NCBI RefSeq assembly: GCF_940670685.1
Contig: NZ_OW711693.1
Span: forward strand, 2,542,001 to 2,606,000
Length of the DNA stretch: 64,000 nt
Source: Anaeropeptidivorans aminofermentans
GTDB taxonomy: Bacteria > Bacillota > Clostridia > Lachnospirales > UBA5962
Direction of reading: 5' to 3'
The translations under genes and the position numbers were made by a program. Shown piece by piece: positions 29,106 to 45,107 of this stretch. Positions within the stretch are counted from its first letter, which is position 1. Each line of letters opens with the position of its first letter. The notes beneath the pieces were generated by a model. That model worked only from the letters and a program-made list of their open reading frames with translations. It ran no database searches and was not told the DNA's origin.

Positions 29106-29270
29106 CATTTTTTGGTGGGAAAATCGACCTGCTTTCTCAGCATCTATTAAATATTTTAAGTAATGACTTAATTTTACAAAGCTCAATGGCGGTACTCCTG
29201 CCCTGCAATTCTCTATAGAATTATATCTAATTCTGTAAAACAATGATAGTTATTACATATGTTAGCAGAG
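29106..29270. other. Intergenic region upstream of the TetR operon
   Basis: No feature seen except AT-rich sequence leading into the degraded transposase. Confidence 0.5.
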
Positions 29271-29548
29271 ACACCCCCAAGTTTAAGTATTGGGCAGTTT
29301 GTGGGTTTTTTAAAAGGAAAAAGCAGACTAATAATATTTAATAGGCATGCGAATTTAAAGTATAAATATGGAAACCGGCATTTTGGATACAAAAGGTATT
29401 ATGTAGATACAGTAGGATGAAATACAGGTGTAATAAGAGAGTATATCTGGAATCAGCTACAGGAAGGTATAAAGGTATAATAGAAGATCAAATATCAATA
29501 AAAGAATATATAGACCCATTTGCGGGTGATAAGAATAAAAAGGAATAA
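29271..29548 (+). pseudogene. Decayed IS200-type transposase (TnpA) C-terminal remnant
   Basis: Reading across at least two frameshifts and a stop, one finds PPKF, QFVGFLKGK, FNRHANLKYKYGNRHF, YYVDTVG and a tail EDQISIKEYIDPFAGDKNKK ending at 29546-29548. This is the C-terminal half of an IS200/IS605 Y1 transposase. The HUH active-site half is missing. Non-functional. Confidence 0.8.
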
Positions 29549-38104: not shown

Positions 38105-38250
38105 ACCTACCACCCTTTCTGGCTTTATTATAAGGCAGCCCCCTTGTATATTAAAGTTCTATTGGGTATCAAAAATACACACACCGTTTCTTAACATGGG
38201 TCTAACATTTTTTGAAGCTTTCACTTTCTATTGATTCAATTTTTATATTC

Positions 38251-38369
38251 ATAGTAACTTTCTTATAAAGAAGGAAGAAAAGCCTATTTACTTAAAGATT
38301 CAAAAATATGGGTTTCCTTCGAAAACCGTATATTTTTGAATCCTCGCAAATATACGGTTTTGTTACTAT
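38251..38369. repeat. MITE-like inverted-repeat element, copy 2
   Basis: Outer arms atagtaac (38251-38258) and gttactat (38362-38369). Inner perfect 13-bp arms gattcaaaaatat (38297-38309 and 38330-38342) around a tip ggtttccttcgaaaacc. Same inner motif (TTCAAAAA) and end motif (ATAGTAA) as copies 1 and 3. Confidence 0.65.
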
Positions 38370-38462
38370 TTAATTTTAAATTTACGATATCTAAAAGTAT
38401 TACCCTGAATATCCATTAAAATCCTCTAAAGCTTTGTAAGGCGCAAGGAATTTTACAAATAA

Positions 38463-42141: not shown

Positions 42142-43329
42142 CTATGGCCTTTTCTTCTCTTGAAGAAAATCGGGAATAACAAATTTTGCATCTTTCTTCA
42201 TATCTCTTATGGGCCTAAGCTCCTGATGGTCTGGGGCTTTTGGCTGTTCCTCAGGCTGCTGGGGCTGTTCATTATGTATATGAGCCTGGGATTGGGGCTG
42301 AGGCTGCTGTGTTCTAACAGGATTTTCCTGAGACTGGGCCGCACCGAAAACAGGAATGGAAGGAAGGTCTTCATTTTCAAGACCTGTAGCAATTACCGTT
42401 ATAACTACTTCATCTTCCAAATCATTATTTATAGATGTACCTAATATGATTTCGGCCTCAACGTCTGTATCTGTGTTGATAATTCCAGCTGCAAGCTCCG
42501 TATCCGTAAGAGTAAGGTTTTCATCGCCTGAAATGGAAATAAGCACATTTTTAGCGCCCTTCATGGATGTTTCAAGAAGGGGGCTGTTAATAGCGGCTTT
42601 TGCGGCGGCCTCGGCTTTGTTTTTGCCGGAAGCCCGTCCAACACCCATATGGGCAACACCCTTATTCTGCATCGTTGTTCTCACATCGGCAAAGTCAAGA
42701 TTAATAACGCCTGGCTTGGAAATAAGGCTTGCAATGCCTTCAACACCCTGGCGAAGAACCTCGTCAGCCTTTTTGAAAGAATCCTTTAAGGAGGTATCTT
42801 TTTCTATTATATCAAGAAGTCTCTGGTTTGGTATTATGATAAGCGTATCAACACTTTTCTTAAGCTCTTCTATTCCCTTAACGGCATTATCCATACGCTT
42901 TTTGCCTTCAAAGGCGAAAGGCTTTGTAACTACCCCTACGGTAAGAATGCCCTGCTCTTTTGCAAGCTTTGCAACAATAGGAGCTGCACCCGTGCCTGTT
43001 CCGCCGCCCATGCCAGCAGTTACGAAAACCATATCTGCTCCGCTTAAAGTCTGATTTATGTCGTCTGTAGATTCTTCCGCAGCCTTCATGCCAATTTCAG
43101 GCCTTCCGCCTGCGCCAAGACCTCTTGTAAGTTTTTCACCAATCTGTATTCTTATAGGAGCCTTGCTCATTTCGAGCACCTGATGGTCCGTATTTACAGC
43201 AATAAAGTCAATAAATTCAACATTATCCTCTATCATTCTATCGACAGCGTTGCAGCCGCCTCCGCCTACGCCTATCACAACTATTTTAGCGTTGCCACTC
43301 TGGTTAGAAGCTATATCTATCAAAACCAT
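42142..43329 (-). CDS. ftsZ: Cell division GTPase FtsZ
   Basis: 395 residues. N-terminal GTPase domain with [13 protein letters not shown] and the tubulin signature [10 protein letters not shown] (near residue 105), T7 catalytic loop [11 protein letters not shown], and a Gln/Pro-rich linker (about 315-375) ending in the conserved C-terminal peptide [13 protein letters not shown] that binds FtsA/SepF-type partners. It forms the division ring. It has its own leader region, an array of 88-bp hairpin repeats, between it and the divIB gene. Confidence 0.97.
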
Positions 43330-43421
43330 TACCTCCTGTTAATATGGTTACTTATCCTTTGGCGTTATATTTTTCGAATATAACAATCAATTCACAAATT
43401 TACGCATATTCATTATATTAT

Positions 43422-44312
43422 ATCATAAGTCCAAGTTTTCCTCATACATTTCCCTTCGTGAAATGTATTCGTGGATAAAATCAAGTAAAACTTGATTTTA
43501 TCGTATTGTATCATATGCTAAAGTTTTCCTCATACATTTCTCTTCAAGAAATGTATTCGCGGATAAAACTAAGTAAAGCTTGATTTTATCGTATTGTATC
43601 ATATGCTAAAGTTTTCCTCATACATTTCTCTTCAAGAAATGTATTCGTGAATAAAATCAAGTAAAACTTGATTTTATCGTATTGTATCATATGCTAAAGT
43701 TTTCCTCATACATTTCTCTTCAAGAAATGTATTCGTGGATAAAATCAAGTAAAACTTGATTTTATCGTATTGTATCATATGCTAAAGTTTTCCTCATACA
43801 TTTCTTTTCGTGAAATGTATTCGTGGATAAAATCAAGTAAAACTTGATTTTATCCATATTATATCATAATTAAAATACTTGTTCACATATTTTGAGAGTC
43901 AAAATATATTTATAAATGAAATTAAGCAAAGCTTAATTTTGTTCGCATTTCCGTATCATAATCTCAGGCTTTCCTCATACATTTCTCTTCAAGAAATGTA
44001 TTCGTGAATAAAATCAAGTAAAACTTGATTTTATCGTATTGTATCATAAGCTAAAGTTTTCCTCATACATTTCTCTTCAAGAAATGTATTCGTGAATAAA
44101 ATCAAGTAAAACTTGATTTTATCGTATTGTATCATATGCTAAAGTTTTCCTCATACATTTCTCTTCAAGAAATGTATTCGTGAATAAAATCAAGTAAAAC
44201 TTGATTTTATCGTATTGTATCATATGCTAAAGTTTTCCTCATACATTTCTCTTCAAGAAATGTATTCGTAAATAAAATCAAGTAAAACTTGATTTTATTC
44301 ATATTATACCTT
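43422..44312 (-). repeat. Tandem array of 88-bp two-hairpin units upstream of ftsZ
   Basis: Units begin (ctcatacatt) at 43441, 43529, 43617, 43705, 43793, 43974, 44062, 44150 and 44238: exact 88-bp steps, with one diverged unit at about 43881-43973. Each unit has hairpin A (atacatttct/agaaatgtat, loop about 5 nt) and hairpin B (ataaaatcaagt-aaa-acttgattttat, 12-13 bp). The diverged unit keeps both hairpins with different sequence (43887-43907 and 43919-43939). The rest of 43330-44387 holds no gene. Two related units sit before guaB. Confidence 0.9.
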
Positions 44313-44387
44313 ATTATCTGCTCTTATGCCACAGTAAATTTGCTTTAAGAATTGCCAGTTTACGGCATTTATACAAAATACTTCAAG

Positions 44388-45107
44388 CTATCTTAATTTA
44401 AGCCTTGGATAACGGGAATCATCTACATATAAATATCCCCCTATATCCTTCATATCTTCAATTTCAGGAATAATCGCCCGAACAGTTCGTACCTTTAAGT
44501 CTAAATCCTTGGAATTACCAAGAATAATATCGATTTTCCCGTAATAAAAGTGAATATTATCTTTGTCGAATACGTCTATGCTTATGATATCATTGGCTAT
44601 CTCAAATTTCTCAAAAAGGTGGGAAAGATTAACCATGGTTCTAAAGGCTTCACTGTTTTCAACTTCTATTATTTCCCCTACTACAAAGCTTGTAAATTCA
44701 AGACCTTCTACAATAGGATGCCTTTCTGTAAAGAAAGAATTAACCTCAAGAACCCTTCCGTCCTTATCAACGTAGAGGTAATTTATATTATCGAATTTTA
44801 CGTATCCGCTTACTTTTCTTTCTTCTACATTTATGTATATGGTTTTATTTAAAAAATCCTTATTAATTTCCACATTTTTTATATAAGGGTTTACCATCAT
44901 GCTTTCTATAGCATTGGCTTTGGAAAACAGAAAGATATTATTCTCCGTTTTAAGCTTCGCCATAGTAAGAATATCCTCTTTTGTAAATTTACTATTGCCC
45001 TCTACTTCAACAGTTTTAATATTCATCGCTGGAGACATCAGAATAAGGATAATCCCTGCGGCAATAAGAGCAATATAATATTTTAACCTGCTCTTTTTCA
45101 TCATCAC
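44388..45107 (-). CDS. divIB: Cell division protein FtsQ/DivIB
   Basis: 239 residues. Short cytoplasmic tail, one membrane helix (about 9-25, YYIALIAAGIILILMSP), then a POTRA domain (about 27-95, VEVEGNSKFTKEDILTMAKL) and the FtsQ/DivIB beta domain. It links the division ring with septal wall enzymes outside the membrane. It lies upstream of ftsZ on the same strand, separated by the 88-bp repeat array. The usual mur genes are absent between them. Confidence 0.9.
   Translation of the reverse strand: MMMKKSRLKYYIALIAAGIILILMSPAMNIKTVEVEGNSKFTKEDILTMAKLKTENNIFLFSKANAIESMMVNPYIKNVEINKDFLNKTIYINVEERKVSGYVKFDNINYLYVDKDGRVLEVNSFFTERHPIVEGLEFTSFVVGEIIEVENSEAFRTMVNLSHLFEKFEIANDIISIDVFDKDNIHFYYGKIDIILGNSKDLDLKVRTVRAIIPEIEDMKDIGGYLYVDDSRYPRLKLR

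Follow-up and report, generated by a model that had tools for sequence, protein, structure and literature searches.

Tandem hairpin pairs upstream of ftsZ in Anaeropeptidivorans aminofermentans probably belong to a promoter-anchored, MITE/REP-like repeat family

Small interspersed repeats are common. BIME-2 carry gyrase sites, BOX repeats are built of boxA, boxB and boxC modules, and the mycobacterial MIRUs are interspersed 50–100 bp units whose tandem copy number varies from locus to locus. As far as the excerpts of the sources cited here describe them, REP sequences (tags GTAG/CGTC) are dispersed short palindromes whose large clusters are often reiterated in tandem with segments of flanking DNA (PMC3733652), and the pneumococcal BOX is a small, modular, highly folded Gram-positive repeat with a module that can be multi-copy, presumed past proliferation and over-representation between convergent genes (PMC3049150). 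Correia elements, about 100–200 bp long and often just upstream of genes, have terminal inverted repeats and TA termini and bring promoter sequence and mRNA-leader hairpins (PMC10969869, PMC2229807). The Caulobacter CIR consists of two stem-loop arms and a linker and is marked by GANTC at the loop (PMC2229807). The TnGBS, ISLre2 and ISKra4 p-MULT elements, which possess inverted repeats and a transposase, insert in an oriented manner at a fixed place relative to σA promoters, 15–17 bp upstream of the −35 box (PMC3942029).

The repeat described here is a non-coding unit that measures ~88 bp from core to core, contains two hairpins (A and B) and is dispersed as single copies and head-to-tail arrays. 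It probably represents a MITE/REP-like family that is specific to this lineage, is anchored in promoters and has been amplified locally at ftsZ. It shares interspersed tandem-copy loci with MIRUs, which are not known to be hairpin pairs at −10 boxes. As in REP/BIME-2, short dispersed palindromes form tandem clusters, but here no GTAG/CGTC tag abuts the palindrome (in many single-copy linkers GTAG lies ~9 nt from hairpin A), two different hairpins follow head to tail, linker length is near-constant and placement is at gene starts. Like BOX it is a small, modular, highly folded Gram-positive repeat, but the description of BOX as a repeat between convergent genes sets it apart from a family found at gene starts, mostly in one orientation. 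A similar size, a place just upstream of genes, promoter sequence and hairpins recall the Correia elements, but Correia-type terminal inverted repeats and TA termini are absent by inspection; instead the −10 box, TGnTATAAT, forms the direct repeat, and tandem arrays occur. Two stem-loop arms and a linker are common to CIR and this repeat. The CIR mark GANTC was found in 1 of 44 hairpin-A loops (that of the variant unit in the window) and 0 of 44 hairpin-B loops, and the excerpt of PMC2229807 makes no mention for CIR of the tandem arrays and promoter anchoring seen here. Oriented placement relative to promoters is shared with the p-MULT elements; in these the junction lies upstream of the −35 box, whereas here it lies at the −10 box. 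The repeat is short, non-coding and present in many copies (~88 bp at at least 67 places), as a MITE would be; inspection of single copies showed no terminal inverted repeats, and no parent element with the same ends emerged from searches for Y1, Transposase_mut and the B-end pattern. As terminal inverted repeats, a parent element (within those searches) and an abutting REP tag are all lacking, we class the repeat as a distinct form among the small interspersed repeats, which by analogy may work like MITE/REP-type repeats that place hairpins in mRNA leaders. Its unusual features are the mostly one-way placement at the −10 box of housekeeping genes, stems that stay paired through changes of sequence, and arrays of near-constant period whose linkers are unrelated. 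The excerpted report on A. aminofermentans M3/9 (PMC9682168) contains no description of such a repeat, and none was found in the open-access literature searched. The same paper reports five metagenome samples that cover this genome with at least 95% coverage and identity.

In the window (the whole 64,000-nucleotide stretch analyzed), Tandem Repeats Finder detected a tandem repeat at 43433–44298 with a period of 88 and 9.8 copies, and a covariance model resolved ten units at 43439–44310 on the − strand (every unit E ≤ 4.6e-9), with hairpin B preceding hairpin A in the ftsZ-ward direction. Each unit is made up of hairpin A (ATACATTTC..GAAATGTAT) and hairpin B (GTGAATAAAATCAAG..CTTGATTTTATTCAT). 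The array lies between divIB/ftsQ upstream (44388–45107, −; Pfam POTRA_1 and FtsQ_DivIB_C, the latter match barely above the cut-off) and ftsZ on the hairpin-A side (42142–43329, −; Pfam Tubulin and FtsZ_C). An earlier sequence-only reading had proposed a ten-unit, two-hairpin array in this place, read toward ftsZ, and both repeat searches, RNA folding (z-scores between −5.1 and −7.6 for two ordinary units, three folds in all since one was folded on both strands) and the Pfam-named, − strand flanks bear this out. Its "exact 88-bp spacing" holds for 7 of the 9 spacings (88, 88, 88, 88, 89, 92, 88, 88 and 88 bp), the others being 89 and 92. As it also stated, a variant unit (43880–43957, −; fold z-score −3.2) retains both stems with different bases in the alignment. 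On the alignment and covariance model, this unit is more aptly seen as a diverged element in its own right, with a sub-array on either side of it on the − strand, one of five units (43439–43865, at 43439–43512, 43527–43600, 43615–43688, 43703–43776 and 43791–43865) with the end CATATTATATCATAA, and one of four (43972–44310, at 43972–44045, 44060–44133, 44148–44221 and 44236–44310), each closed by its own ATTATA-containing tail. No Rfam family reached its gathering score anywhere in the window.

A search of the organism's own genome (one contig, 3,757,330 bp) found the family strewn over the whole chromosome. The covariance model, built from 44 promoter-side or single units (alignment A1), gave at least 134 matches at E ≤ 0.01; the scan scored the best 150 of 7676 candidates, so that all copy numbers are lower bounds. 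Grouping excluded ten of the 134 matches, namely eight that overlapped others on the opposite strand and two short ones close to 2.2 Mb, which leaves 124 units in at least 67 places, namely 48 singles and 19 groups of 2–10. Three extra units, in loci L027, L032 and L043, stand outside the 124. The window contains a second member of two units (233–393, +, by covariance model), 98 bp before the IMP dehydrogenase gene guaB (491–1945, +; NCBIfam TIGR01302), its A-side gene; the A-to-B model matches the − strand there, so the member runs from B to A on the + strand.

Placement relative to genes is strongly oriented. With gene starts taken from a simple open-reading-frame caller, 55 of 67 groups have a hairpin-A-side gene that points away from the element, with its start nearest to it (p = 1e-7); they comprise 37/48 singles and 18/19 arrays. 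The bias holds where the A-side gene lies within 300 bp and the element is free of any frame (40/45) and is not significant beyond 300 bp (11/17). The B side is neutral (31/67), and another repeat family from this DNA, treated by the same method for comparison, had 44 of 80 sides pointing away (40 of 55 pieces usable). The bias could also come from selection after random insertion. Among the loci considered, 34 A-side proteins had complete frames; 20 of these were searched against NCBIfam, and 16 passed a curated cut-off; the genes named include YggS, proS (proline tRNA ligase), glnS (glutamine tRNA ligase), Dxs, LexA, a GGDEF protein, IMP dehydrogenase, DnaX, AhpC, IspF, rubrerythrin, PurH, an ECF sigma factor, ClpP and MTA/SAH nucleosidase. 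No common function is apparent among these 20. A division- or ftsZ-specific role, which the sequence-only reading had entertained, is not supported by a family that precedes 55 genes, diverse among the 20 searched, and a division-specific array is rejected on the dispersal of the element over at least 67 places. Palindromic units that are dispersed, and tandem with near-constant period, might instead form a DNA-binding array organizing the chromosome, with sites for a nucleoid or division protein or BIME-2-like gyrase sites. We consider this improbable, as the placement of the element follows the starts and orientation of genes, and stem sequence varies with pairing kept (stem B at genome 2129063 is of unrelated sequence and perfectly paired), which is ill-suited to a sequence-specific protein.

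The hairpin-B end usually abuts a −10 box, mostly TGnTATAAT. In the B-end alignment TRTGRTATAAT is the commonest sequence adjoining stem B, and the DNA upstream of it is unique. A modest −35-like signal accompanies the box: at 47 of the 67 ends, those with poorer −10 boxes being left out, the best TTGACA-like score at spacers of 16–18 was 2.70 versus 2.29 ± 0.11 in shuffled sequence (0/2000 as high), and windows centered on 16 and 17 ranked top of 38 offsets (2.71 and 2.70). A full TTG at 16–18 bp is present at only 8/47 ends, and non-overlapping windows reach 6. The core may recur on the gene side of the element, where a good copy is kept in only 17/48 singles and 6/19 arrays. Among the 20 of 67 loci with both cores, the middle N agrees within a locus more often than expected (0.75 vs 0.47, p = 0.003), as does the whole core 9-mer (0.911 vs 0.866, 0/1000), and the 12 bases upstream of the cores show no excess in the same comparison (0.442 vs 0.441). 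This agreement, which depends on few G/G loci, suits a target-site duplication of the extended −10 box, and subfamily structure could mimic it.

These features suggest how a promoter-anchored repeat might operate. A mobile or formerly mobile MITE/REP-like element would enter, or be tolerated only at, σA-type promoters at the −10 box, where the host −35 box and the upstream −10 copy would preserve promoter function. Transcription would start within stem B, pass the hairpins and enter the gene, and some copies would later expand in tandem. Our more specific version is tentative and less likely: the element would enter extended −10 boxes one way, duplicate the box and capture the starts of dozens of housekeeping genes without silencing them, and arrays would grow in a start-site-linked manner, each unit from +1, giving leader hairpin arrays, a near-fixed period and freely changing linkers. 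The family offers a natural test of promoter invasion by a repeat without loss of expression.

At the ftsZ array itself, the promoter scan and B-end alignment place a −10-like TATAAT at the promoter-side end (44303–44308, −); it is preceded by AAGG, so it is not of the TG form, and the scan finds a weak −35-like GTGGCA (44327–44332, −) at a spacer of 18. The scan also finds an internal extended −10, TGATATAAT (43858–43863, −), with a −35-like TGAACA at a spacer of 16, which separates the sub-arrays, and the sequence reads TGATATAAT again at the ftsZ end of the array (43417–43422, −), the second copy of the core. Promoter-like matches near the array are not in excess (7 vs 8.4 in shuffles). If transcription begins at the seventh nucleotide past the promoter-side box, the predicted +1 of ftsZ is ~44296 and the leader is 967 nt long; this leader of almost 1 kb would probably contain about twenty hairpins. 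The likely effect on ftsZ would be that of a long structured 5′ leader altering mRNA stability or translation, in either direction. Of the earlier proposal that a promoter-proximal repeat tunes ftsZ, the position stands, with a far-end −10-like box that reads into the array, and the ftsZ-specific role is not supported. We find it scarcely credible that the hairpins are transcription terminators or 3′-end elements. Two terminator-like matches lie in the array on the + strand versus 0.3 in shuffles, but they are weak (3 G-C pairs of 13), none lies on the strand reading into ftsZ, and the side on which a bias would be expected is the neutral B side.

Array anatomy is regular over the family. Across the 19 groups the period is 82–90 bp in 54 of 57 spacings (the others 92, 96 and 129), and the linkers of ~28 nt have an identity of 0.87 inside one array and 0.47 across arrays (shuffled 0.45), with 0.77 for the hairpins across arrays (shuffled 0.47). 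Stem B scores higher in the promoter-side unit than in internal units (means 14.7 vs 9.6, paired p = 1e-4; at ftsZ, 13 vs an internal mean of 11.3). Followed in the B-to-A direction, internal units resemble the promoter-side one across the 10 nt beside the loop (identity 0.63–0.89), the outermost of which is the 7th base past TATAAT and hence the predicted +1; identity is then 0.26–0.53 at positions 11–17, 0.74 and 0.58 at 18–19 and 0.16–0.53 farther out, and the other arm of stem B retains 0.63–0.95 all along, with all identities lowered by an apex misplaced in a few of the 19 arrays. This inward match from +1, together with a period that holds although linkers are unrelated, is what would be seen if array units were copies of leader RNA, made by RNA-templated or start-site-linked copying of the first ~88 nt from +1. 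Such an origin is nonetheless highly improbable. Reverse transcriptase RVT_1 has no match in the genome, identity climbs again at positions 18–19, the unit boundary is located to ~2 nt against a +1 that is itself predicted, and some arrays have a gene-side end unlike their internal linkers. At ftsZ the internal junctions retain the TGATACAAT core, as simple core-to-core duplication predicts, and such duplication explains this array for that reason. Several of the other arrays have no recognizable −10 at their internal junctions, and the array at genome 2902110 is without a terminal hairpin B. Near genome 2176592 (L024), the repeated linker of an array reads ATGTCAAAAGTGATTGCAATAGCC on the gene-reading strand, which is protein-start-like; growth of arrays of this type may copy or supply the first codons of the gene.

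Pairing is maintained despite sequence change. In A1, whose 44 units come from the window and from 36 further stretches, 93.3% of cells pair and both sides have changed in 17 of 25 pairs (105 cells). None of 500 shuffles reached these values on any measure, and the signal is lost when the pairing partners are slid. These counts come from the 44 rows of A1 alone, which also shaped the structure, and Watson–Crick cells amount to 89.3% in A1 versus 81.5% in 22 later loci. RNA-level selection would be expected to favor wobbles that only the transcribed strand can tolerate (written C-A) over those of the other strand (G-T). For the transcribed versus the other strand, the 44 model rows had raw counts of 42 v 47, and a further 80 rows had 116 v 110; without the outermost B pair the counts were 66 v 47 (p = 0.09) over 66 rows from 59 sources, or 33 v 21 in hairpin A (p = 0.13) and 33 v 26 in hairpin B (p = 0.44). 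In the 58 remaining rows, mostly related and so non-independent units of the same arrays, hairpin A had 25 v 4, and hairpin B had 45 v 53. The lean toward the transcribed strand is thus slight and not significant over 66 rows. Loops are also found inverted (CAAAG in 13 and CTTTG in 4, ACGAAGT in 3 and ACTTCGT in 2, and others). Template switching between palindrome arms homogenizes arms and inverts loops, as described in excerpts of PMC8794818 and PMC8604942, and such switching in the DNA would maintain the perfect stems at least in part. Because the wobble lean is not significant and loops are inverted, the covariation may reflect upkeep of a DNA palindrome more than RNA selection. The sequence-only reading was right that paired substitutions exceed chance; its suggestion of selection on RNA structure keeps the real covariation and is weakened by the wobble counts and the loops. 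Covariation by itself is no proof of a functional RNA, and this family can test how far it stems from DNA template switching versus RNA selection.

The same data bear on a structured cis-regulatory RNA, a leader regulator or 5′-end mRNA stabilizer selected as RNA, whose arrays would add hairpins to genes such as ftsZ. The sense leader position at 55/67 genes, very stable hairpins with strong paired substitutions, the stronger promoter-side stem B and the wobble lean, pronounced in hairpin A of the further array units, all speak for it. We nevertheless regard it as doubtful, since that lean is not significant over 66 rows, the 20 genes searched share no function and relatives possessing ftsZ were found not to have the repeat. 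Rfam gave no match in the window and, at E ≤ 0.1, none inside the element at four further loci (one sub-threshold match lies outside it), and the predicted +1 puts ~six bp of the full stem upstream of the transcript, outside the RNA.

Returning to the preferred reading of a lineage-specific repeat, its distribution appears narrow. With blastn the repeat was found in 0 of 38 other genomes among the relatives, which include no second genome of the genus and so no empty site to compare. Covariance-model scans covered 115 further genomes from the order and 390 from the class, under stricter filters and with the number of candidates scored in each genome kept low (41 and 12). They gave only one match (E = 2.9e-5), in G021 (L076) from another family of the order. 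It shares the stem core AATCAAGC..GCTTGATT and not the remainder, lies in a different hairpin setting adjoining a TTACTTTCTTGAAAGAAAGTAAC-type repeat, and is probably due to chance or convergence. The ftsZ loci of 11 relatives contain no unit at E ≤ 1; ten include the full upstream stretch, and G003 (L116) covers only 117 bp before ftsZ. By reading, G001, G002, G004 and G005 have a short divIB–ftsZ gap free of the repeat. The sequence-only reading had named absence at ftsZ in relatives, joined to paired substitutions no more frequent than chance, as evidence against it; the absence was found in ten relatives, but the substitutions exceed chance. An exact 21-base core had two single matches in a genome-contig collection, in unrelated bacteria by title, and none in viral contigs, and blastn found none in plasmids or phages; records of the organism's own genome may be absent from these four collections, so those scans speak for other genomes. 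On these searches, the repeat is lineage-specific. By inspection, G006 (L115) carries a different long inverted repeat between divIB and ftsZ, and this gap may tolerate repeats.

We infer that the repeat is mobile or was so formerly because it is dispersed in one orientation. The ends of single copies read ATGAATAAAATC... past the B core and TAAGCGTAGTTT... past the A core (the latter on the opposite strand), and are not mutually inverse. PF01797 (Y1) has 26 matches in the genome, made up of sets of like length and score and of three with stops, with no intact single-copy RAYT recognized among the 26; Transposase_mut has one match, truncated. An IS200 origin was rejected on reading two Y1 copies, whose hairpins CCACCTGC..GCAGGTGG and ACTACCGG..CCGGTAGT are unrelated to the repeat. 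The B-end pattern (≤2 mismatches) has 43 matches, 4 of them away from known members: an apparent deletion relic with both ends (L126), one that may be a degenerate member (L123) and two with nothing recognizable. An autonomous partner was rejected on reading these four, which include no split element with a gene. Searches with Y1, Transposase_mut, RVT_1 and the B-end pattern thus found no matching transposase, and the mobilizing enzyme may be lost or unrecognized.

Three further observations concern other traces of repeats in this genome. At genome 1188294 (L126), both −10 cores and the element ends are present and the two hairpins absent, possibly as a deletion product. Window positions 29253–29456 hold a broken fragment of a Y1 (IS200-type) transposase with an in-frame TGA. 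A second dispersed repeat, commoner and intergenic (TATAGTAAATTTAAAGTTAAACAGTAACAAAA...), occurs at window 38219–38400 and at genome 245755, 623648 and 39801, and comprises 55 pieces of 90–350 bp, each matching at least 8 of the compared genome stretches.
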